From NCBI GenBank assembly GCA_947494305.1, contig CANLUL010000001.1, positions 1,240,001 through 1,304,000 of the forward strand: a stretch of 64,000 bases of DNA. The letters are read 5' to 3'. Of this stretch, positions 18,648 through 35,148 are shown piece by piece (the first letter of the stretch is position 1; each line of letters opens with the position of its first letter). The notes below the pieces were generated by a model. That model searched no databases and was not told the origin of the DNA. It saw nothing but the letters and a program-made list of their open reading frames with translations. The position numbers and the translations under genes are program-made. Source of the stretch: an uncultured Sphingomonadaceae bacterium (GTDB lineage: Bacteria > Pseudomonadota > Alphaproteobacteria > Sphingomonadales > Sphingomonadaceae).

Positions 18648-19661
18648 ATGATCGACTTAACAACTGCACCCAAGCAGCCATCCGCTATGCGCAAAGCCGT
18701 CGCAATTTTTGCAGGCGTTTCTATGCTCTCTATAGCGAGCACAAGCGCAAATGCTGCGGGTACACTCGCGGGAACAGATATCGTAAATGTTGCGCAGGCC
18801 TCTTACGACGGCCCAAGTGGTCCTATAACCGTTGATTCTAATCCGGTAACGATCAAAGTCGATGAGTTGCTGGATGTAACGACTGCATCTAGCAACACTG
18901 GTGATGTTGTCACGAGCCCAGCGGCAACGACACAGGTCCTTTCATATCAAGTTACGAACACCGGAAATGGTCAGGAAGCCTTTACGCTAACAGCAGATAC
19001 TGCCAAAGGCGGCGACGATTTCGATACGACATTTGAGCAAATTGTCCTCGATACGAACGATAATGGGGTCTATGATCCTGGTGTTGACACGGTTTATTCG
19101 GCCGGCACCAATGATCCTGTTCTAAATCCTGATCAAAGTGTCACGGTTTTCGTACTTTCAACCATTCCAGCCGGCGCTGCAGATGCAGAACGAGCAGAAG
19201 TAGGGCTTACCGCCGTTGCTGTGACCGGAAGCGGTGCTCCCGGTACTACATTCGCAAGCGCAGGAGATGGCGGCGGTGACGCGGTTGTGGGTTCAACTGG
19301 TGCAAGTAGCGAAGATAGTGGCTTTTTTATAATTCAAGCAGCGCAGATAACGCTTGTTAAAAGCGCCGCTATTTTAGACCCGTTTAGTGGCAATCAACCG
19401 GTGCCCGGTGCCACCATTACATATCAATTGGTCGCAACCACAACTGGGACCGGAACGCTCAACAATCTGGTCGTATCCGATGATATTCCATCGGACACCA
19501 CTTACACACCAGCAAGCATCACGCTGGAAGGCGTCGGCCTGACTGACAGTGACGCCGATGCCGACGCAGGTTCTTTCGACGGCACGCAAATTTCCGTCGC
19601 TTTGGGCGCCATTCCTGGCGGGCAAACGCGAACCATTACCTTCCAAGTCACGATAGATTGA
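18648..19661 (+). CDS. Exported DUF11-type surface protein, first of cluster
   Basis: A 337-residue exported protein. The start at 18648 (MIDLTTAPKQ) is chosen because AGAGG lies 7 nt upstream; a TTG at 18609 and an ATG at 18627 also lie in frame. The signal peptide is MRKAVAIFAGVSMLSIAS...ANA, with cleavage near residue 36. The mature chain starts with IVNVAQASYDGPSG...SNPVTIKV, a motif shared with two other proteins of the cluster. Next is a beta domain with an Asp-rich loop DTNDNGVYDPGVD that resembles calcium-binding loops, then a DUF11-type Ig-like domain (about residues 235-337: LVKSAAILDP...GATITYQLVATTTGTG...VVSDDIPSDTTYTP). There are no Cys residues. Function unknown; surface structure or adhesion is inferred. 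Confidence 0.85.
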   Translation: MIDLTTAPKQPSAMRKAVAIFAGVSMLSIASTSANAAGTLAGTDIVNVAQASYDGPSGPITVDSNPVTIKVDELLDVTTASSNTGDVVTSPAATTQVLSYQVTNTGNGQEAFTLTADTAKGGDDFDTTFEQIVLDTNDNGVYDPGVDTVYSAGTNDPVLNPDQSVTVFVLSTIPAGAADAERAEVGLTAVAVTGSGAPGTTFASAGDGGGDAVVGSTGASSEDSGFFIIQAAQITLVKSAAILDPFSGNQPVPGATITYQLVATTTGTGTLNNLVVSDDIPSDTTYTPASITLEGVGLTDSDADADAGSFDGTQISVALGAIPGGQTRTITFQVTID

Positions 19662-19671
19662 GGATGATTTG

Positions 19672-20148
19672 ATGAAAGTCAAAATACTAAAATATATCGC
19701 AACGTTCGCCGCACTAGCCGTACCAGGCATAGCCATAGCCGCGAATAACGTTGCTCTGTCGAGCGATGTTTTTGTTGAACGCAAGGTTGAAAAACCAGAT
19801 GGCAAGACTGCCGTTCTTTTGGAGCAACCCAAAACCGTTCTTCCAGGCGATAATTTGGTTTTTGTTGTCAAATATAAGAATGTCGGCAGTGCACCGGCCA
19901 CAGATTTCTCCGTCACCAATCCGCTCCCCAAAGCGGTGGCGTTCAATGGAACGTCCGATGGCGCTGAAATTGTCTCCGTTGATGGAGGTAAAAGCTGGGG
20001 ATCGCTTTCGGCCCTAACATATACACGCAAAAATGGCGAAATTCGGCCAGCTCTCTTGAGCGACGTTACGCACGTAAAATGGAAATTTAATCGCTCTCTT
20101 TCAGTTGGTTCTGAAGGAAAGCTAGTATTTCGTGGAACAGTAAAGTGA
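19672..20148 (+). CDS. Exported single-domain DUF11-like protein, second of cluster
   Basis: A 158-residue exported protein starting MKVKILKYIATFAALAVPG, with cleavage after IAIA. AGGATG lies 5 nt before the ATG at 19672. The mature part is one Ig-like domain of DUF11 type: a Val-rich N-strand, VLPGDNLVFVVKYKNVGSAP, then FSVTNPLPKAVAFN. The gene starts 10 nt after the first cluster gene. Unlike its neighbours it lacks the Asp-rich domain and the shared N-terminal motif. It could be a minor subunit or a periplasmic helper; this is a guess. Confidence 0.82.
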   Translation: MKVKILKYIATFAALAVPGIAIAANNVALSSDVFVERKVEKPDGKTAVLLEQPKTVLPGDNLVFVVKYKNVGSAPATDFSVTNPLPKAVAFNGTSDGAEIVSVDGGKSWGSLSALTYTRKNGEIRPALLSDVTHVKWKFNRSLSVGSEGKLVFRGTVK

Positions 20149-20214
20149 CCACAGACCGTATCGGATTGCCGCGGGGATTAGGCAATCCAAATTTGAGTGA
20201 AACAGGAGACAGTA

Positions 20215-21294
20215 ATGACCAGTAAACTGAAACTTCTCGTTGCCACGAGCGCAATTTCTGTTGCCATGTTGGGCGCAAACCCCGCATTTGCAGCAGATTT
20301 AGGCACCGATGCAGGTACGAGTATAACAAATAATGTAAGTGTAACTTATAGTGTGGGTGGAACGACACAAACACCGCCGCCCGTTGCATCTGATACCTTC
20401 GTAGTAGACCGCGAAGTCAATCTCGTTGTGACCAGAACCGACAATGTCAACACGTTGGTTGCACCGGAGGCGACACAGCAAGCTTTGACTTACACTGTCA
20501 GCAACCAGACCAACGATACTATTGATGTGCTTTTGACATCTGAACAGCTTGGAACTGATGATTTTGATGTAACAGGCACAATCACATATTATCTTGATGA
20601 CGGAACAACGCCTGGTGTTTTTGATGCTGGCGATACCCCAATTACGTCGATTGAAGATCTGGCTGAGGATGAAACGGTAACCGTCCATTTGGTTGCTAAC
20701 ATTCCAGCAGGTGTAGTGACCGGTAATGAAGCTGAAGTTATCCTGATCGGACAAGCTGCTGACACGACTGGAACAGCATTTGTCAACAATATCGGTGATG
20801 CGGACGACCCAACACTGGTGCAAAACGTATTTGCTGACGGTGCCGGAACCCGCACGGGCGGAGCCGCTGGCGATGGTTATCACAGTGATACAGATACTTA
20901 TGAAGTATCAGCCGCCAACCTGACAGTTGCCAAAACAAGCACTGTGCTTTGGGATCCCATCAACGGATCGAGCGATCCAAAGGCAATCCCTGGTTCGGTG
21001 ATCGAATATTGTATTGCGGTAACGAACGCAGCGGGATCTGCGACAGCGACAAACGTAGCAATTACCGATGATATTTCAGCACTTGATCTGGATTATTATG
21101 CAACAGCCCCTGGCTCTGGACCGGCTTCGATCCCGACAGCCAATGGTGTTGTATCGGCCAATTCCTGTAATGGAACCGGGACAAATGCCGACGCTTCGGG
21201 CCTTGGTCATTCCAGCGGCACGATCAGCGGAAACCTCGGTAACGTTGCTCAGAACACAACGGAAGTACTCTTGTTCCGTGTAACGGTTCAATAG
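20215..21294 (+). CDS. Exported DUF11-type surface protein, third of cluster
   Basis: A 359-residue exported protein, start at 20215 (MTSKLKLLVATSAIS) with AGGAG 8 nt upstream and signal cleavage after PAFA. It has the same architecture as the first cluster protein and is probably its paralogue: an N-terminal motif SITNNVSVTYSVGG...SDTFVV, a beta domain with an Asp/Gly loop (DDGTTPGVFDAGDTP) and the phrase VANIPAGVVTGNEAEV (first protein: STIPAGAADAERAEV), then a DUF11-type domain (TVAKTSTVLWDP...PGSVIEYCIAVTNAAGSATATNVAITDDI). Two Cys (in EYCIAV and NSCNGTG) could form a disulfide. Confidence 0.85.
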   Translation: MTSKLKLLVATSAISVAMLGANPAFAADLGTDAGTSITNNVSVTYSVGGTTQTPPPVASDTFVVDREVNLVVTRTDNVNTLVAPEATQQALTYTVSNQTNDTIDVLLTSEQLGTDDFDVTGTITYYLDDGTTPGVFDAGDTPITSIEDLAEDETVTVHLVANIPAGVVTGNEAEVILIGQAADTTGTAFVNNIGDADDPTLVQNVFADGAGTRTGGAAGDGYHSDTDTYEVSAANLTVAKTSTVLWDPINGSSDPKAIPGSVIEYCIAVTNAAGSATATNVAITDDISALDLDYYATAPGSGPASIPTANGVVSANSCNGTGTNADASGLGHSSGTISGNLGNVAQNTTEVLLFRVTVQ

Positions 21295-21307
21295 AAGAGA
21301 TAGAGAT

Positions 21308-21354
21308 GACGGCCCTTTCGTTAATCTAACGAAAGGGCCGTCCTCCCCCTTTTT
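21308..21354 (+). terminator. 16-bp perfect hairpin with T-run between the third and fourth cluster genes
   Basis: GACGGCCCTTTCGTTA (21308-21323) and its exact complement (21327-21342) are separated by a 3-nt loop. CTCCCCC and then TTTTT (21350-21354) follow. The T-run starts 7 nt after the stem, which is not fully canonical. Since the next gene starts at 21357, partial termination or attenuation inside the operon is more likely than complete termination. Confidence 0.75.
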
Positions 21355-21356
21355 AT

Positions 21357-24300
21357 ATGAGCATATTAACCAAACTCTTTAAGCCGGTACAACTGGCTTT
21401 TGCTGCAGGCGCTGCGATATCGTCTGCCTCTACGGTTGGTGCTCAGGCTCAAACTGTTGATGATCAGTCACAGCAGCCAAGTGTCGCAGACGATCAATCC
21501 CAAAACCTGCCCCTAATCAGCAATATTGCTCAGGCAGAGTGGGATATTGGCAATCAAAGGCTTCAAAAGCCGTCCAATTCGGTTGATATTCAAGTTGTCG
21601 CTCCCCCAGCACCACCTGAAATCACCATATACAACTTCGATGACCCGCCAGGAGCGGAGCAAATCTCTCTTCCAGGAACAATCTGTCGCGGCTCCGGGGG
21701 CAATGTCCCTGTTGAGCTCATGGGTGTGTTTGCTGGAACGAACACCAATCCAGCCTCTGTCGCCCCAACAGACAGAATTCGTGCTGGAGAGCCTCTAATT
21801 GTCTCAATTCTTGCCCCAAACAAGAATTTGACCAGTACCGCTATCGATAGATTCGATATTGTGCTCTCGACGCCATCTGGTGATCGAGAAACTATCAATG
21901 TCGTAGAAACCGAGGTCAATAGCGGTCGTTTCGTCGGTATGATCAATACGGCGGCTATTCCTCCCACTCCCATGCAAGGCGATTGCGTCCTTTCGGTGAG
22001 ACCGGGAGATATGCTGGACGTCGGAATTGATGAAATTGGTGGAAATCCTCTCGGTTCAGTGGAAATTGGGATTCTAATTGATCCCTTTGGCGAAACCTTT
22101 GACAGCGGCGATGGCGCCCCTGTTTCCGGTACACGCGTAACGTTGATTGACGTTGCAACAGGCCAACCAGCTGATGTTTTTGGTGATGACGGCGTATCAG
22201 TGTTCCCCAGCACAGTGATATCCGGCGGATCAGTGACAGACAGTGGCGGCAACGTGTATGATTTCACCGAGGGATTTTACCGCTTCCCCTTTGCCCGTCC
22301 CGGGCAATACCGGTTGATTGTAGAGCCGCCAGCCCCCTACACAGCCCCCTCAGAAGCCACGCCAAACCAACTGGCGCAGTTTAGACGAACAGATGGGCTT
22401 CCCTTCACCATTGTTGATGGCTCATATGGTGGCATAATCACGCTAGATGACCCAGCTCCGGTTCGTGTCGATGTCCCGCTTGATAGGCCGGGTGTACCGC
22501 TAATCATCAGCAAAACTGCGTCAAACGCCGTTGTGGTGCCCGGCGATGCCCTGCAGTATCGAATAACCGTCCAAAATAGCGACCCTGTCCGAAACACAGG
22601 TGAGGTAACGATTGAGGACAGTTTACCTAATGCCATGCGGCTTCGCATAGACACTGTTCGCTACAATGGTGCTCTCGTTGCACCCGTAGTGCAGGGAAAT
22701 GGACAAGACTTTACCGTAACTGTTCCTCCTCTAGGCCCCGCAGAGACAGGGACTCTCACTTATTTGGCCGAAGTCCGTCAGGATGCGCGTCCAGGAGATG
22801 CGATAAACAGTGCTCAAGCGAGAGATAACAGAGGCGCGACCAGTCCGGTTACCGATGTAGCCGTTCGGGTTGAACGAGATGGGATCTCCGATCGGTTTAC
22901 AATCATTGGCCGTATCACGGATGGTGGATGCAATATTGATCCTCGCGAAGCCAGCGGCATAGCCGGCGTTCGGGTTATTCTACAGGACGGCACCTATACC
23001 GTTACGGACATAGATGGTCGTTACCATTTTGAGGGCATAAAGCCTGGTTTGCACGTGGTTCAGGTCGATCCATCGACATTTCCTGCTGATTTGGCACCGA
23101 TCGACTGCGCTCAAAATACAAGGTCAGCCGGGAGCGATATTTCACGCTTTGTTGAAGGCCGTGGTGGCGCGCTCAAAAGAGCTGATTTTAGGGCAAAAAC
23201 AGTAACTGCACGTAAAATCGATGCGACTGCGACTTACAATAAACCAGAAGTTGCATCGGATCCAGAAGCCGCTGGTGCCAATCGCGATTGGTTCACTGGC
23301 CAAAAGCCTGGCATTGCTTGGCTTTTCCCCGAAGAAGAGCATAACCCTCGCGTCAAAGCCATTCGCGTGGCTATTCAACATCACGCCGGTCAAAAGGTTA
23401 ATCTAACCGTAAACGGCAAACCCGCGAATGCTTTGGCCTTTGATGGAACCAAAAAGAGCAAGAACGGAAGAATTCGTGTTAGCACTTGGCGCGGTATTGA
23501 AATCGAGGACAGAACCAACGTTCTTATCGCTCGCGTAGTATCGAGAAAAGGCGAACTGATTCAGGAACTTCGCAGAGAAGTTCACTATTCTGGAAGCCCC
23601 TTAAATGCCGAATTTTTGAAGGACCGATCCGTTTTGGTTGCCGACGGCGTAACCAGACCCGTCATTGCGGTTCGGCTTACGGATCGTGAAGGAAATCCTG
23701 TACGTCATGGGTTAGTGGGCGACTTCAGTGTGCCAGCTCCTTACACGCCTGCGATTGAGGTCGATGCACAACAAGCAAATCAGCTTTCCGGTCTGGAACG
23801 CGGTGCCCCTGTTTGGCGCGTTGAAGGTGAAGAAGGCGTTGCTTACATCGAGTTAGCACCAACCACCGCATCAGGCTCACTCAGCATCACATTTCCATTC
23901 AAGGATGGCGAAGTTTCGCGCGAGCAACGTATTGAAACATGGCTTGATCCCGGTGATCGTCCATGGACTGTCGTTGGCTTTGCCGCCGGTACAGTGGGTT
24001 TCAACACATTGGATGAGCGTCTGGAAGACCTTTCCGATGACGAAGATAATATCAATGTTGACGGCCGTGTTGCCCTTTATGCCAAAGGTCGTGTCACCGG
24101 CAAATGGTTGATGACACTGGCCTATGACAGCGACAAAGAAGAAGATGAAACCCGCTTCCAGGGCGTCATTGATCCACGTCGCTATTACACAGTTTATGCC
24201 GATCGCAGCGAACAACGTTTTGATGCTGCATCCGTCCGTCGTCTGTATCTGAAACTAGAGCGTCCACAGTTTTATGCGCTATTCGGCGACTATGAGACGG

Positions 24301-26492
24301 GTATCGATGAACCCGAACTAGCCCGCTATCAACGTGCGTTCAACGGTATCAAAGCCGAGTATCGCAACGAGCAGGTGCACCTGAATGCCTTTGGCGCAGA
24401 CTCGCCCAATCGCTTCCGCCGTGAAGAAATTCAGGGTAATGGCCTGTCTGGTCCTTACGCCCTCGCCACCCGTGATATTCTCGCGAACAGCGAACGTATC
24501 ACTTTGGAAACGCGTGACCGTTTGCGCTCTGACCGGATTGTTGAACGTCGTGAGCTTACGCGCCATATCGACTATGATATCGATTATCTGGCCGGAACAC
24601 TGCGTTTCCGCGAGCCTATCTTAAGCCGTGGTAGCGGCCTTGATCCGCAATTCATCATTGCTGAGTATGAAGTATTGGGTGTTGGCGACCGTAACCTGAA
24701 TGCTGGTGGCCGGGCGACTTACACATCCAAAAACCAGAAATTGAAGATCGGTGCAACGGCCGTTCATGACGAAGATGAGGCGGTTAAAACCGACTTATTA
24801 GGTGTGGATGTGCGCTATCGCCCAGATCTTAAAACGGAATTCCGGGCTGAATTGGCTGTGACGGACAACGAAGCCAAGACCGCTAATGCAACCGGCACAG
24901 GCCGCGCGGCGACAGCATGGCTCGTCGAAGCAGAGCATCATGGTTCGAAGTTTGACGTGCTGGCCTATGTCCGCCGTCAAGCCAGCGGATTTGGGTTGGG
25001 ACAGATTAATGCATCCGAGAGTGGCACCCGCAAATTCGGTATTGATACCCGGGTTCGTGTTACCGATCAGCTTTCGGTTGCGGTAACCGGGTATCAGGAA
25101 AATTTCCTGGATACCAATGCCCGCCGTCGCTCCGGAACAGCAGAAGTTGAATATCGTTCAAAGGACACATCTTTGCGCGCCGGTATCGTGCACGCCAATG
25201 ATCGCCTGTCTGATGGTACGACAAACAAATCGACCTTGGCACGCTTTGGCGCAACGCAAAGACTGTTTGATGGCAAGCTCGAATTGGATGCGCAGACTGA
25301 ATTCGCCTTGGGCGGACAGGATGAAAGCATCGATTTCCCTGCGCGCCACAGCGTGACCGCACGCTATGCGATCACCAATGATATCAAGCTTGTTGGCACC
25401 TATGAAATTGCCGATGGCGAGAACATTGACGCACGAACAGCACGGATTGGTGTTGATGTGGCTCCATGGGATGGTGCGCGTATCGTGAGCAGCATCAACC
25501 AGCAGGAAATTACTGAATTTGGTCCGCGCACCTTTGCTGCCTATGGCTTGACCCAATCTATTCCGCTCGACGAAAAATGGACGATTGATTTCTCACTCGA
25601 TGGCAATGAAACCTTGGGGGGTTTCCAACGCAGCGATGTGATTAATGATGAACAGCCCGTCGCATCTGGCGGCTTCCTGGGCAATGATGGTTCATTGACC
25701 GAAGATTTTGTTGCGGTGACCGCAGGCGCAACCTATCGGGCAGAGGATTGGAGCTGGGTTAGCCGCGCAGAATATCGCGACGGTGATTTAAGCGAGCGCT
25801 ATGGCTTCACTTCTGCGATTTTGAAAGAAATTGGCGAAGGCAGCTCAGTCGGCGCGATTGGCAGTATATTTGTTGCCGAAGATCTAACCGGCACCAAGAC
25901 ACAGGTTGTTGAGGCCGAGGCAAGCTGGGCACATCGTCCATCTGACAGTCAGTGGTCCTGGCTTGAAAAGTTAGAATATCGCGAAGACAAAATTCGCAAC
26001 GCAACGGCTGGAACATCCGGACCGATTGGCGGCGCGCCATTGTTAGTGAACGGAGACGTTACATCGCGCAGAATTATCAATAGTTTAAGCGTCAATTATA
26101 CGCCGATTGACGCGGATGACGGCATCTTTACCGAAGCCGGCGAATATAGCTTCTTTTGGGGAAGTCGCTACGTATTCGACAAATTCGGACAAGATGATGT
26201 CAAAGGCTGGAGCAATGTAATCGGTGCGGACATCAAGTTCGATCTCTCCGACACCATTGACATCGGCGGACAGGCGACTGCGCGCATAGGCACGGATTTC
26301 GATACGATTGCCTATTCGGGTGGACCGAGTGTTGGGATTACACCGTTTAAAAACGGTTATATCTCAGTTGGTTATAATGTGGTGGGTTTTGAAGACCGCG
26401 ACTTTGAAGAAAGTCGATATACCAGAGATGGGCCCTTCATCACCTTCCGCCTGAAGTTTGACCAGGACACCTTTAGCAGTTTGGGGCTGTAA
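21357..26492 (+). CDS. Giant exported DUF11/carboxypeptidase-regulatory-like protein with putative outer-membrane beta-barrel
   Basis: A 1711-residue protein with a signal peptide (MSILTKLFKPVQLAFAAGAA..., cleavage near residue 32). Regions in order: an N-terminal motif LISNIAQAEWDIGNQ...SNSVDIQV shared with the cluster; unknown beta domains (about 80-370); a DUF11-type Ig domain (about 378-500: IISKTASNAVVVPGDALQYRI); a Carb/SdrD_B-like domain (about 514-580: GVRVILQDGTYTVTDIDGRYHFEGIKPG); Ig-like segments (about 640-860); then from about 865 to the end alternating aromatic/polar strands typical of a large outer-membrane barrel, opening with YYTVYADRSEQ...LYLKLERPQFYALFGDYETG...YQRAFNGIKAEYR. 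I recall comparable phrases in large envelope proteins of other phyla. No Shine-Dalgarno precedes the ATG. It is likely the outer-membrane anchor or exporter of the cluster. Confidence 0.85.
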   Translation: MSILTKLFKPVQLAFAAGAAISSASTVGAQAQTVDDQSQQPSVADDQSQNLPLISNIAQAEWDIGNQRLQKPSNSVDIQVVAPPAPPEITIYNFDDPPGAEQISLPGTICRGSGGNVPVELMGVFAGTNTNPASVAPTDRIRAGEPLIVSILAPNKNLTSTAIDRFDIVLSTPSGDRETINVVETEVNSGRFVGMINTAAIPPTPMQGDCVLSVRPGDMLDVGIDEIGGNPLGSVEIGILIDPFGETFDSGDGAPVSGTRVTLIDVATGQPADVFGDDGVSVFPSTVISGGSVTDSGGNVYDFTEGFYRFPFARPGQYRLIVEPPAPYTAPSEATPNQLAQFRRTDGLPFTIVDGSYGGIITLDDPAPVRVDVPLDRPGVPLIISKTASNAVVVPGDALQYRITVQNSDPVRNTGEVTIEDSLPNAMRLRIDTVRYNGALVAPVVQGNGQDFTVTVPPLGPAETGTLTYLAEVRQDARPGDAINSAQARDNRGATSPVTDVAVRVERDGISDRFTIIGRITDGGCNIDPREASGIAGVRVILQDGTYTVTDIDGRYHFEGIKPGLHVVQVDPSTFPADLAPIDCAQNTRSAGSDISRFVEGRGGALKRADFRAKTVTARKIDATATYNKPEVASDPEAAGANRDWFTGQKPGIAWLFPEEEHNPRVKAIRVAIQHHAGQKVNLTVNGKPANALAFDGTKKSKNGRIRVSTWRGIEIEDRTNVLIARVVSRKGELIQELRREVHYSGSPLNAEFLKDRSVLVADGVTRPVIAVRLTDREGNPVRHGLVGDFSVPAPYTPAIEVDAQQANQLSGLERGAPVWRVEGEEGVAYIELAPTTASGSLSITFPFKDGEVSREQRIETWLDPGDRPWTVVGFAAGTVGFNTLDERLEDLSDDEDNINVDGRVALYAKGRVTGKWLMTLAYDSDKEEDETRFQGVIDPRRYYTVYADRSEQRFDAASVRRLYLKLERPQFYALFGDYETGIDEPELARYQRAFNGIKAEYRNEQVHLNAFGADSPNRFRREEIQGNGLSGPYALATRDILANSERITLETRDRLRSDRIVERRELTRHIDYDIDYLAGTLRFREPILSRGSGLDPQFIIAEYEVLGVGDRNLNAGGRATYTSKNQKLKIGATAVHDEDEAVKTDLLGVDVRYRPDLKTEFRAELAVTDNEAKTANATGTGRAATAWLVEAEHHGSKFDVLAYVRRQASGFGLGQINASESGTRKFGIDTRVRVTDQLSVAVTGYQENFLDTNARRRSGTAEVEYRSKDTSLRAGIVHANDRLSDGTTNKSTLARFGATQRLFDGKLELDAQTEFALGGQDESIDFPARHSVTARYAITNDIKLVGTYEIADGENIDARTARIGVDVAPWDGARIVSSINQQEITEFGPRTFAAYGLTQSIPLDEKWTIDFSLDGNETLGGFQRSDVINDEQPVASGGFLGNDGSLTEDFVAVTAGATYRAEDWSWVSRAEYRDGDLSERYGFTSAILKEIGEGSSVGAIGSIFVAEDLTGTKTQVVEAEASWAHRPSDSQWSWLEKLEYREDKIRNATAGTSGPIGGAPLLVNGDVTSRRIINSLSVNYTPIDADDGIFTEAGEYSFFWGSRYVFDKFGQDDVKGWSNVIGADIKFDLSDTIDIGGQATARIGTDFDTIAYSGGPSVGITPFKNGYISVGYNVVGFEDRDFEESRYTRDGPFITFRLKFDQDTFSSLGL

Positions 26493-30831: not shown

Positions 30832-33800
30832 CTAGTCCGCAAAACGGAACTGTACTTTACCAACAGCCTGTCCATTTGAGTAACCGCCTGAGGCACCAAA
30901 GCTCCACCGATCATTGCCGCGAAGCGCAATGCCTCCACCAAATCCGGCCTTGCCGTTGACGACGCTGAATCCGCCGGAAATAGCGTAGCTTTCGTTCCGA
31001 TCGAGATATTGATCAGGAATGGCGGCAACCGCAGCTAGGCCACCTTCCAGATCAGATATCCGGCTATCCTGGCTGGCCAGAGCCGTTACAAAATTGTCCA
31101 GCCGCAGATCAAAGGATTCTAGCCGCTGGGTATTGGCCAAAATACTTTGGCCGTTATTGGCTATGCTCGCCGTGTTGCTGGCCACGGCCGTGGTGTTGGC
31201 GGTAATGGCAACGACATTATTGGCGACACCAACTGCATTGGTATCAATATCAGTCCGGTTCGTTGCGATCGACGCTGTGTTTGCAGATATACCGGTATTA
31301 TTGCTATCAACCTGTCCTTGCAAAGCACCACCGTCAGATGCCACATTACCATCAGCATCTGTTGTAATCACACCGGAAACAGCACCCTGGGCGTTGCGGG
31401 CATTGGCACCATTTATGCCGCTGAGGGTATATGTCGTAGTGCTATTGCCATAGACATGTTGATTGTCCCGGGTTGTTGCTGCGCCCGCGCCGAAGGCAAC
31501 TGAGTCCGCAAAGTCAGCCGACGACCCATTCCCAATCGCGATGGCATTTGCACCGGCTGCATTGGCGCTGTCACCAACTGCAACGGACAATTGACCGGTG
31601 GCATCGCTGTTGTCGCCCAGAGCTGTACCGCCATTGGCCGCGTTGGACCCCGCGCCAAGCGCCACCGATCCGGAAGCCGTGGCCCCGAAACCGATAGCAG
31701 TCGCATTGGTGCCGGTGGCCTGCGCATTATCCCCGACTGCGGTGGAATTCTCGGCGGAGGCAATGGCATTGGTTCCAACCGCCGTGCTGTTCGCGCCTGT
31801 ACCGTCGAGTGACCCAAAATTGCTATTGGTCTCCAGACTATTAACCCGCGTGGACAATCCCTGAATCTCTACGGTGTTGTTTGTGACATTATTTGTGTTT
31901 GTTGCAATGGCTGCCGTATTATTCCCGACATCGGTTTGCAGATTGCTGATATTGGTGCTGTTGGTATCAACATTGGTATCAAGTGCATCAATGGCTGACT
32001 GAACATTGGTTGCGGTCAGTCCCGACGTGCCATTGTCATAGCTGTTGGAGGCTGCCCGTGTGTCTATAACGACATCGCCGGCTTCATCGCGATAGGTGTA
32101 GGTGCTGTCGCCATTGTCGACCAGGTCGATCGCACCGACGGTGGTCTGGAGACTGGCAATATCCATCGCATTATTGCCGGTGTTGGTATCAACAGCACCA
32201 AGGGCCGCGTCCAACTGATCCTTGTTCACCGCGTCTGTTGGATCCGTGCCCGCCGCCACATTGACGATGCGGCGCTCACTCCAGGCGGCACCGACTGATA
32301 CGGTATTCTCCTGATTGGCGCTGGAGCCTGCACCAATTGCAACAGAACCGGCGGCAAAAACCTGAGCGCCTTGCCCGATGGCAACTCCGCCATTTACCCC
32401 TGAAGCCGCCAGCGCACCGATGACGATATTATCGTTGCCAGTAGCGCTTGGGCCGTTGGTTGCATTGCCGCCGGCCAGGAAATTGCCACTGCCTTCTACA
32501 ACCGCATTATGCCCGACGATGATATTGCGTCCGGAGTTCGCGCCGTTCACGCTGTTATTCGATCCCAATATCCCGATATGTGATCCTTGCTCGATCCTAG
32601 AATTGACGACATTCTCGGAACCGGCAATATGGATGGATGTCTGGACATTATCACCCCCACCGCCAGCAATCACATTGTTCGCGCCGCTGACCGAGCTGTC
32701 CCAAACCAAATCGCCCAGAATATTGTTTTTGCCCGAAACACTGTTGTCGCGGTTGATTTCGCCCAAATTGTTGTCACGGCCGGTTACCAGATTGCGGCTG
32801 GCGTCTTCGCCAAGGGAGTTATCGTCACCCGCAACGAGGTTCTGGCTGGCAAACAGGCCAATATTATTATCAACACCGCCGACAAGATTGGAATTGGCTT
32901 CCTCATTTAGGATATTACCCCGGCCGAAAACCGCGCTGTTACTGGTTATGCCATCGATCCTGTTTGCGGAGCCAGCAACAATATTGTCGGTGGCGCTGTC
33001 GCGCAGTCTATTTTGCTGCCCAAAAACGGCATTTCTCTGGGCTTCGTCACCCAGCTCATTTCCTTCACCCGAAACAGCGTTGTGAGTGGATCGCCGACCA
33101 AAACTGTTGCGGGCGCCCGACACGCTATTATGGGAAGCAAAATCGCCAAGAAAATTATCTTCACCACCAACTATATTGGAGTTGGCTTCCTGATCAAGGA
33201 AATTGGTTCGACCGAAAACCGCGCTGTTATTGGTTAGTTGGCTAATGTTGTTTGCGAAGCCGGAGACAACATTGTTTCTAGCGTCGTCAAACAGTGCGTT
33301 TTGATGACCCGAAACCGCATTTCCCGCAGCCTGATTGCCCAGTCTATTGTCTTGTCCCGACACATTGTTGTAAGCTGTATTATCCCCCAGCGTATTGATA
33401 GAACCCGATACCGCATTCAATCTTGCATTCGCTCCCAGCTCATGGCGTAATCCCGATACCGAGTTAAAGTCTGCATTTGTCTCCAGAATATGGAAGTTAC
33501 CTGATACCGAGTTGCTGTCTGCACCTGCGTCCAGAGCATTGGAGAAACCCGATACCAAGTTATGACCTGTATTTGCACCCAGATTATTGGTTCCACCCGA
33601 TACCGCGTTAGCTTCTGTATTTGCGCCAAGAATATTATCTTCACCACCAATAATATTGAAACTGGCCTCTTCTCCCAATGTGTTTTGATTGCCGGTAACC
33701 AGATTGCCATCACCGCCTATATCGCCGTCCATGTTGCTGTCAGTGGCTTCGGCAAAAACATCATCGGCGGTAAATAATATACCATCTGTTCCAACGTCTC

Positions 33801-35148
33801 GGACAAAACCCAGCCGGTTGCCGAAACCAGAAACCGCATTTTGATCGCTTTCTGAGCCCAACCTATTGCCCAGTCCGGCAACGGTGTTATGTCTGCCGCC
33901 GTCAAAAACAATGTTATTACCACCGGATACCGCGTTACCGAGGGCATTTTGGCTCAGAACATTGGAGTTACCCGATACCGCGTTACCGAGGGCATTTTGG
34001 CTCAAAAAATTGAAGTTACCCGATACCGCGTTACCGCCTGCATTCTGGTCCAGAAAATTGCTAGAACCTGATACCGCGTTGGATCTTGCACCATCGAGCA
34101 GATTATTGGAGGAACCCGATACCGCGTTATGGTCTACATTTGCTCCCAAATTATTTGAAGACCCCGATACCAAGTTATGGTCTGCATTTTCGCCCAGAGA
34201 TATTCTCTCACCCGATACCGCGTTGAATCTTGCATTTTCGCCCAAGGATATTCTTTCACCCGATACCGCGTTATGGTCTGCATTTGCGCCAAGAATATGA
34301 CCTTCACCGCCAACAATATTGAAATTGGTCTCTTCCCCCAGCGTGTTTTGATTACCAGCGATCAGATTACCATCACCGCCAATATCGCCGTCCATATCGC
34401 TGTCAGTGGCTTCGGCAAAGACATCATCGTCCGTAAATGAAATGCCATCTGCCCCATCCTCCCGGACGAAGCCCAGCCGGTTGCTGGAACCGGAAACCGC
34501 ATTTTGATTGCTTTCTGCGCCCAGTTCATTTCCCTCACCCGAAACCGCATTTGCCTGAGTCCGATTGCCCAGAATATTGTCTCGTCCCGACAGATCATTA
34601 TTGGCTGTATCATCCCTCAGCCTATTGGTATTGCCGGATATTCTATTGCCAGAGCTTGCAATGCCTGTAACGTTGCGAACGCCAGAAATGGCATTGCTGA
34701 AACTATCAGAGCCCAGCCGGTTGCTGTTACCCGATACAATATTATTGCTGCTTTCATCCCCCAACTGATTACTGCGCCCGGAAACCAGATTCTGGCCGGT
34801 TTCTTCGCCAAGGGTGTTACTTTGGCCCGAAACGGCGTTACTTCTGGCTTCAGTGCCCAGACTGTTTAGCTGACCCGATACAATATTATCTTCACTATCA
34901 TCACCAATACAATGGCCGGTGCCGGAAACGTCATTACCGGTCCGGCCATTGCTTGGGGCCGCAGTAATCGGAGCCGAGCTGCATCCCAATGGCGATGTTC
35001 CGTCATAGCCATCGACATCGTTATTTTGCGCCTGCGCCGTCTGTGCGGTCATCGCCAAAGCAATGGAAAGCGCGGCAATGCCGGTGCCGGTGCGCAATTT
35101 TGACGATGTCGCAGAATTTTGATCAAAGACGGTATTTTTAACGATCAT
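30832..35148 (-). CDS. Trimeric autotransporter adhesin (YadA/Hia type) with 16-residue head repeats
   Basis: A 1438-residue surface adhesin, expected to trimerise and anchor itself in the outer membrane. Regions: a long signal peptide (TGIAALSIALAMTAQTAQAQ, to about residue 41); a head of ~50 repeats of 16 residues with consensus N-x-L-x-x-x-A-x-x-N-x-V-S-G-x-x (about 75-880); a YadA-type head (VAIGQGAQVFAAGSVAIGAG); a neck RRIVNVAAGTDPTDAVNKDQL near residue 960; a coiled-coil stalk; a second YadA head (about 1113-1240); another stalk; and the C-terminal YadA anchor (SYAISGGFSVVNGKAGFGGG ... GKVQFRFAD), ending in an aromatic-rich strand. GGAG precedes the ATG. It is divergent from a LysR regulator. 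Confidence 0.93.
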   Translation of the reverse strand: MIVKNTVFDQNSATSSKLRTGTGIAALSIALAMTAQTAQAQNNDVDGYDGTSPLGCSSAPITAAPSNGRTGNDVSGTGHCIGDDSEDNIVSGQLNSLGTEARSNAVSGQSNTLGEETGQNLVSGRSNQLGDESSNNIVSGNSNRLGSDSFSNAISGVRNVTGIASSGNRISGNTNRLRDDTANNDLSGRDNILGNRTQANAVSGEGNELGAESNQNAVSGSSNRLGFVREDGADGISFTDDDVFAEATDSDMDGDIGGDGNLIAGNQNTLGEETNFNIVGGEGHILGANADHNAVSGERISLGENARFNAVSGERISLGENADHNLVSGSSNNLGANVDHNAVSGSSNNLLDGARSNAVSGSSNFLDQNAGGNAVSGNFNFLSQNALGNAVSGNSNVLSQNALGNAVSGGNNIVFDGGRHNTVAGLGNRLGSESDQNAVSGFGNRLGFVRDVGTDGILFTADDVFAEATDSNMDGDIGGDGNLVTGNQNTLGEEASFNIIGGEDNILGANTEANAVSGGTNNLGANTGHNLVSGFSNALDAGADSNSVSGNFHILETNADFNSVSGLRHELGANARLNAVSGSINTLGDNTAYNNVSGQDNRLGNQAAGNAVSGHQNALFDDARNNVVSGFANNISQLTNNSAVFGRTNFLDQEANSNIVGGEDNFLGDFASHNSVSGARNSFGRRSTHNAVSGEGNELGDEAQRNAVFGQQNRLRDSATDNIVAGSANRIDGITSNSAVFGRGNILNEEANSNLVGGVDNNIGLFASQNLVAGDDNSLGEDASRNLVTGRDNNLGEINRDNSVSGKNNILGDLVWDSSVSGANNVIAGGGGDNVQTSIHIAGSENVVNSRIEQGSHIGILGSNNSVNGANSGRNIIVGHNAVVEGSGNFLAGGNATNGPSATGNDNIVIGALAASGVNGGVAIGQGAQVFAAGSVAIGAGSSANQENTVSVGAAWSERRIVNVAAGTDPTDAVNKDQLDAALGAVDTNTGNNAMDIASLQTTVGAIDLVDNGDSTYTYRDEAGDVVIDTRAASNSYDNGTSGLTATNVQSAIDALDTNVDTNSTNISNLQTDVGNNTAAIATNTNNVTNNTVEIQGLSTRVNSLETNSNFGSLDGTGANSTAVGTNAIASAENSTAVGDNAQATGTNATAIGFGATASGSVALGAGSNAANGGTALGDNSDATGQLSVAVGDSANAAGANAIAIGNGSSADFADSVAFGAGAATTRDNQHVYGNSTTTYTLSGINGANARNAQGAVSGVITTDADGNVASDGGALQGQVDSNNTGISANTASIATNRTDIDTNAVGVANNVVAITANTTAVASNTASIANNGQSILANTQRLESFDLRLDNFVTALASQDSRISDLEGGLAAVAAIPDQYLDRNESYAISGGFSVVNGKAGFGGGIALRGNDRWSFGASGGYSNGQAVGKVQFRFAD
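33390..34830. repeat. 48-bp coding repeats in the adhesin head
   Basis: Many in-frame 48-bp units lie here. Two neighbouring units near 33926-34020 are nearly identical at the DNA level (GATACCGCGTTACCGAGGGC repeats with a period of exactly 48 bp). The period of 16 codons equals the protein repeat. Units of this similarity can recombine, so copy number may vary. Confidence 0.85.

Follow-up and report, generated by a model that had tools for sequence, protein, structure and literature searches.

The stretch of DNA analysed here, referred to as the window, comprises 64,000 nucleotides (C1:1240001-1304000) of the 3.35-Mb genome (G000) of an uncultured Sphingomonadaceae bacterium, and it carries a cluster of four genes, p1 to p4, that may encode a surface fibre together with its outer-membrane anchor. 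All four genes are located on the forward strand, with intergenic gaps of 10 (measured to the ATG of p2), 66, and 62 nucleotides. p1 (18648..19661) codes for 337 amino acyl residues, p2 for 158 residues when read from the ATG at 19672 (19672..20148) or 159 residues from a TTG (open reading frame, ORF, 19669..20148), p3 (20215..21294) for 359, and p4 (21357..26492) for 1711 residues. Each protein starts with a Sec-type signal sequence, as judged by eye without a predictor, and the four consecutive exported-looking ORFs of a preliminary description made from the letters alone are borne out in size, strand, and spacing by their coordinates. p1 appears to be a shaft-type subunit consisting of an N-terminal donor strand, an Ig-like middle part, and a C-terminal, incomplete DUF11 domain termed acceptor here. 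p3 is a second subunit of this type and a paralogue of p1 (28-30% identity, E values from 2e-11 to 9e-18). p2 has an acceptor and no donor strand, and p4, the predicted anchor, combines a donor strand, one complete DUF11 domain, SdrD_B-like and other Ig-like regions, and a C-terminal barrel.

The order p1-p2-p3-p4 on one strand is kept in 115 of the 122 homologous loci with a strong p4 match, and therefore the four-gene pattern is not due to chance; with this, the synteny outside the strain on which the preliminary description had made its proposal depend was found. Six of the seven exceptions have no upstream sequence and the seventh (L099) has no p2 match. The 122 loci (42 plus 80) come from collections that share genomes; those from the named collection are the best 80 of 449 retrieved with a 22-sequence p4 profile, and among these best 80 the loci with the most similar p4 include Parasphingorhabdus and uncultured Sphingomonadaceae. 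Conservation was counted over distinct sequences (109-111 rows per protein); these are related to each other and not independent. The absence of key residues from the rows of L068, L124, L139, and L159 seems to result from a wrong frame or start, and in L162 the missing Lys lies beyond the compared stretch. Within the family, p4 is matched in 54 of 149 genomes, the window's own included, in some of them across the barrel part only; this count, like those of 11 in 385 and 62 in 398 genomes given below, includes weak matches. One genome (G014) possesses two complete p1-p4 clusters (L055, L058).

DUF11 had been proposed for all of the small proteins. This is so for p1 (Pfam 9.6e-5, TIGR01451 8.3e-9) and p2 (Pfam 3.7e-4, TIGR01451 9.6e-6), both of which pass the cut-off of TIGR01451 and, in full length, remain just under that of Pfam; p3 has no Pfam or NCBIfam match and is assigned through its kinship with p1 and through a custom DUF11 profile built in this analysis, with which its C-terminus scores. 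The complete domain of p4 (residues 382-490) is matched by Pfam at 1.5e-9, with 38.6 bits against a cut-off of 24.6. Pfam DUF11 consists of 114 positions, and the match in p1 covers positions 10-84, ending where p1 itself ends. As far as sequence goes, the ends of the subunit proteins thus fall inside DUF11 (CLIPPER) domains, which is a new observation: p1 and p3 stop ahead of the last DUF11 strand, the one that bears the Asn, yet retain the isopeptide Lys and Asp. The corresponding residues of the CLIPPER crystal structure 9IFR are Lys715, Asp748, and Asn806, and an autocatalytic Lys-Asn bond is known within single CLIPPER domains (both from PMC12617251).

In the acceptor of p1 (19341..19658), Lys238 and Asp278 are each kept in 108 of 111 rows, and in that of p3 (20914..21291), Lys240 is kept in 111/111 and Asp285 in 110/111. 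Candidate donor strands are found in p1 at residues 42-55 (18771..18812; Asn47 in 108/111, Ala49 in 110/111), in p3 at residues 33-46 (20311..20352; Asn39 in 109/111), and in p4 at residues 51-65 (21507..21551; Asn56 and Ala58 each in 108/109). The complete DUF11 of p4 (22500..22826) has Lys386, Asp421, and Asn484 in all 109 rows and is the only copy with the full Lys/Asp/Asn set in one chain. The free strand with which mature p1, p3, and p4 begin has the form I-x-N-x-A. Within the first 130 residues a motif written for the free strand occurs in 105/111 p1, 105/111 p3, and 99/107 p4 proteins, in none of 110 p2 proteins, and in 11 of 3208 other ORFs at the same loci; it is absent from the last 60 residues of every p1-p4 row. 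A C-terminal residue was considered as an alternative bond partner of the Lys, p1 ending in Asp or Asn in 84/111 rows and p3 in 97/111. The idea was set aside because the acceptors of p5, a fifth protein described below, retain Lys and Asp yet end in Asp or Asn in only 18 of 45 rows.

Whether a neighbour's N-terminus can complete an acceptor was evaluated with a DUF11 profile seeded on the complete domain of p4 and enlarged by full-length matches, acceptors being scored alone and with appended segments at 28 loci in a first run and at 103 loci each with 19- and 33-residue segments; rows without full segments were dropped. With 33 residues, the p1 donor completed the profile on the p1 acceptor in 102 of 103 loci (shuffled segments, 469/2060), at a mean gain of 7.4 bits versus 0.4 for shuffles. 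The p3 acceptor was completed by its own donor in 98/103 (shuffled, 501/2060), by that of p4 in 89/103 (shuffled, 355/2060), and by that of p1 in 100/103 loci, and p2 was completed by the p1 donor in 91/103. Donors of 19 residues still completed the profile more often than shuffles did, and the first run agreed overall with the larger test. The Pfam score of the window's p1 acceptor rose from 29.9 bits alone to 33.2-36.8 bits with three donors (scrambled, 29.5). By sequence logic and profile completion, the missing strand may be supplied by the N-terminus of a neighbour.

The C-terminal region of p4 (residues 904-1711, 24066..26489) seems to form a large outer-membrane-type barrel. A model of residues 640-1711 built from 55 sequences (mean predicted local distance difference test score, pLDDT, 72.1; predicted template modelling score, pTM, 0.62) contains, by a count in its strand list that begins at model residue 265, 36 strands with a length of 8 residues or more. 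Except for the first (ApoB100, probability 0.66), all of the 50 Foldseek matches displayed are outer-membrane barrels or complexes that hold one, among them SlpA, BtuB, LptD, SprA (rank 18), and PapC, all with low template modelling (TM) scores. At the level of fold class the barrel proposed in the preliminary description holds, and the soluble C-terminal region that would have spoken against it is not what the model indicates. Residues ~380-580 of p4, a DUF11 and SdrD_B-like pair, also match proteins on Thermus and Deinococcus plasmids (H45-H72). Spread of the whole p4 gene by plasmids was considered and rejected, as most of p4 is found in just 1 of 52 matching plasmid records. At four other loci (L079, L080, L081, and L082), proteins of 1208-1487 residues with a barrel related to that of p4 lie beside giant DUF11 ORFs (1636 to >2600 residues) and represent a second type of DUF11-barrel pair; the donor motif has no match in these four barrel ORFs, the start of the L082 ORF being doubtful.

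Acceptor-only proteins extend beyond p2. In 46 of the 110 loci with at least 1200 nucleotides downstream, a fifth gene, p5, adjoins p4, often overlapping its stop codon by 4 nucleotides; these 46 were picked by eye from 59 downstream ORFs, 13 being dropped as antisense or unrelated. The p5 product consists of a variable N-terminal part and a terminal acceptor, and no donor was seen in p5-type proteins. Of 45 distinct rows, three of which belong to the window's genome, 43 retain the acceptor Lys and 44 the Asp. N-terminal domains were recognised in 4 of the 19 proteins scanned, CshA_NR2 plus SpaA_3 in L157 and L145 and a P-domain in L142 and L066; CshA_NR2 is a fibronectin-binding adhesin fold according to PMC10952558. 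By its domain architecture, p5 resembles a tip adhesin. In the window's genome p4 lacks a neighbouring p5, and five acceptor-only, exported-looking proteins are encoded at other loci, three in a row at C1:1703233-1709299 (L077:9233-15299), one at C3:233127-234800 (L195:3127-4800, reverse strand), and one at C5:16604-17812 (L196:2604-3812). These scattered proteins are candidates for interchangeable tips. A weak match at C1:1484300 was dropped, no acceptor protein being found there. The coordinates first given for the cluster are thus correct for the four genes and do not cover the whole system, candidates for its tip proteins lying outside the window.

Taken together, synteny, complementary breaks, residue conservation, profile completion, and the barrel-type model lead us to propose, with a probability of roughly two in three, that p1-p4 specify a surface fibre that is held together by donor-strand exchange between split DUF11/CLIPPER domains, probably sealed by Lys-Asn bonds, and anchored by p4. 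p1 and p3 would be the shaft subunits, the donor of one completing the acceptor of the next subunit outward. As Lys and Asp are on the acceptor and Asn is on the donor, an inter-subunit bond is expected, and insertion of the donor would trigger its autocatalytic formation. Acceptor-only proteins, having no donor, could only terminate the chain at its far side, where p5-type tip adhesins and perhaps p2 would be placed, and p4, with a donor and without a free acceptor, could only terminate it at the near side, where it would tie the fibre to its own barrel. Assembly would proceed without a PapD-type chaperone; polarity, the length of the assembly, passage through p4, and adhesion as its purpose belong to the same conditional picture. 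The small proteins had originally been taken for subunits of a surface layer or fibre and p4 for their anchor or exporter. This interpretation is supported in part: donor and acceptor halves, synteny, and the barrel-type C-terminus speak specifically for subunits and anchor, and a fibre is favoured over a surface layer. It is about an even question whether these operons represent a widespread, so far undescribed class of Gram-negative fimbriae with split self-sealing joints, each comparable to a natural SpyTag/SpyCatcher pair, that employ neither sortase nor PapD-type chaperone, receive scattered interchangeable tips, and are capped by a giant barrel that maybe also exports, with p2 maybe acting as a placeholder.

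Several observations weigh against this proposal. In the profile test, neither the p3 nor the p4 donor raised the score of the window's own p3 acceptor in the 28-locus run, the score gains with 19-residue donors were small (p1 on p1 exceeded all 20 shuffles in 11 of 103 loci), and the N-terminus of p2, used as a control, slightly lifted the Pfam score of the p1 acceptor (31.6 versus 29.9 bits). The donor Asn is lost from p1 in L069 and from p3 in L099 without a visible change in the partner, bond residues are absent from p2, and outside the family the p4 strand has no Asn in L213, L214, L216, and L217, L215 being ambiguous. The model of a tethered p3-p4N pair from L085 (mean pLDDT 87.2, pTM 0.49) has a strand list that is also compatible with a local hairpin; Foldseek matches this model to Ig-type proteins of several domains, among them surface proteins and pilins of Gram-positive bacteria. 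Finally, the proposed fibre has no known chaperone or export machine.

An unlikely alternative is a donor-strand fibre without covalent bonds between subunits, in which Lys, Asp, and Asn are kept for the stability of the fold. The loci without Asn just listed, as well as p2, would agree with it, and chaperone-usher pili need no such bond. A covalent anchor is indeed not universal, because of the four p4 strands without Asn. What argues against this alternative is that acceptors without the bond Asn keep Lys and Asp almost invariably, as the donors keep Asn, and that the same three residues form the bond in complete CLIPPER domains (PMC12617251). In addition, L051 loses residues on partner proteins together: the donor Asn of p1 is replaced by Ser and the acceptor Asp of p3 by Glu, and both Lys and Asp are gone from the p5 acceptor, whereas the donor Asn of p3 and p4 and the acceptor residues of p1 are retained. 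As a single case, this correlated loss fits the order p5-p1-p3-p4. In sphingomonads p2 has no bond residues and carries Asn at the Asp position in 103 of 110 rows. A reversible donor-strand placeholder is one conceivable role for p2.

Equally improbable is a stalk of fixed length with one copy of each protein (tip-p1-p3-p4), that is, a fibrillar adhesin split into strand-linked pieces and not a polymer. Each locus has only one or two shaft genes, single very large donor-plus-acceptor proteins occur in L210 (966 residues) and L213 (969 residues), and the order suggested by L051 would also suit such a stalk. Against it, the profile test shows little difference between own donors and those of the other protein for the acceptors of p1 and p3, and the hairpin between p3 and p4 (21309..21341, forward strand) would fit a surplus of subunits. 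Downstream of p3, 76 of 111 distinct loci have a strong stem (median z -3.45), compared with 3/111 after p1 and 8/107 after p2, and this hairpin may set the ratio of subunit to anchor in favour of the subunit. It was not accepted as a classical terminator, no consensus terminator being called in the window and a T-run following in 17 of the 76 strong-stem loci. Very improbable, finally, is that the N-terminal strands pack on their own chains in separate surface proteins and resemble the last DUF11 strand as a common N-terminal motif, since such closure, which the N-terminal hairpin strand lists would also fit, leaves unpaired halves because p4 is donor-only and p2 and p5 are acceptor-only, and the donor motif is silent in the barrel ORFs of L079-L082.

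Operons related to p1-p4 occur outside the family as well, Gammaproteobacteria included, and this shared layout speaks for the proposed fibre, as do the acceptor-only proteins elsewhere in the window's genome. Among 385 genomes of the class 11 were matched, eight of them outside the family; one (G204) encodes a full-length p4 adjoined by p2 and by a subunit of p3 type, without p1, and another (G315) encodes donor-plus-acceptor, donor-plus-barrel, and acceptor-only proteins in a row. On a plasmid of Acinetobacter haemolyticus (L198:3492-16999), a p2 relative (E 4.7e-11) is accompanied by a shaft gene split into several short ORFs, a 2008-residue relative of p4 that has a donor strand, a gene of the OmpA family, and a 978-residue acceptor-only protein. 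With the 2008-residue protein as query, 62 of 398 genomes across the phylum were matched, many partially and some in the window's own family. Among the 12 loci fetched with it, the module is present in L210 and L213-L219, L211 and L221 have parts of it that are truncated by the end of the stretch, and it could not be made out in L212 and L220; p2 relatives occur at seven of these 12 loci, with E values between 4.6e-31 and 1.4e-8 for a set of 41 proteins. The conjugative plasmid of Novosphingobium sp. THN1 (L199:5174-14177) has p1, p2, and an ORF of p5 type; matches to p3 and p4 are scattered across several frames of the unannotated record.

In chaperone-usher pili, the Ig-like domain of a subunit is completed by a strand that the N-terminus of its neighbour donates, the tip protein is acceptor-only, and an outer-membrane barrel is located at the base. 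The proposed fibre would follow the same logic of a donor strand to the neighbour, a donor-less tip, and a barrel base, but with the DUF11 fold and its Lys/Asp/Asn set, and with a barrel protein that itself bears a donor strand. PapD_N has no match in the window's genome (the E. coli control was positive) and the usher family PF00577 has none in p4. The sole usher match in the genome is below threshold (C2:274927-275541, reverse strand; 25.3 bits versus a cut-off of 27.1) and lies in a 942-residue frame. A sorting motif was not seen by eye at the C-termini of the subunits, which end in a DUF11 strand, and no sortase search was made. Archaeal threads (Saci_0406) combine donor-strand complementation with a proposed covalent isopeptide bond between subunits, and a second protein is thought to cap the filament (PMC9715654). 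Their bond links the N-terminal amino group to an Asn two subunits on, the threads have no outer-membrane barrel, and they are not DUF11 proteins; compared by description, they are a precedent for strand exchange together with an isopeptide bond of another type. CLIPPER fibrillar adhesins share the domain family and the bond residues with the proteins studied here, p4 holding one complete copy, and CshA_NR2-type tip domains with p5-type proteins. The adhesins described in PMC12617251 have complete repeats within one chain, whereas here the domains are split between chains. The SprA/Sov translocon of the type 9 system is a very large single-chain barrel, as is predicted for p4. Homology of the p4 barrel to SprA was considered and set aside, given low TM-scores and a match of residues 1065-1142 to TIGR04189 with E 0.13 and 9.3 bits (cut-off 200); the genome search with TIGR04189 gave no match, but the controls were likewise without one. 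An anti-phage defence system was also discarded, with 0 PADLOC matches for the four proteins. The titles and beginnings of abstracts searched, with preprints and most subscription papers outside reach, contain no description of this system.

The cluster is directly flanked by housekeeping genes: upstream lie zapA, a 5-formyltetrahydrofolate cyclo-ligase gene, and tRNA-Asp, and downstream a branched-chain 2-oxoacid dehydrogenase operon on the opposite strand. Secretion or chaperone proteins are not found among the nine neighbouring proteins scanned. These include a YadA-like protein of 1438 residues (30832-35148, reverse strand), 5 kb from the cluster, which with its YadA-head repeats and many N-x-V-S-G repeats is likely a trimeric autotransporter adhesin.

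If the proposal is correct, sphingomonads and some other proteobacteria would possess a class of pili that has been hidden under annotations such as DUF11 protein, hypothetical protein, or TonB-dependent receptor. The joints of these pili would be natural split isopeptide domains that serve assembly, and thereby a source of new protein ligation pairs. The scattered surface proteins with a terminal acceptor would, in that case, gain a function as interchangeable tips.

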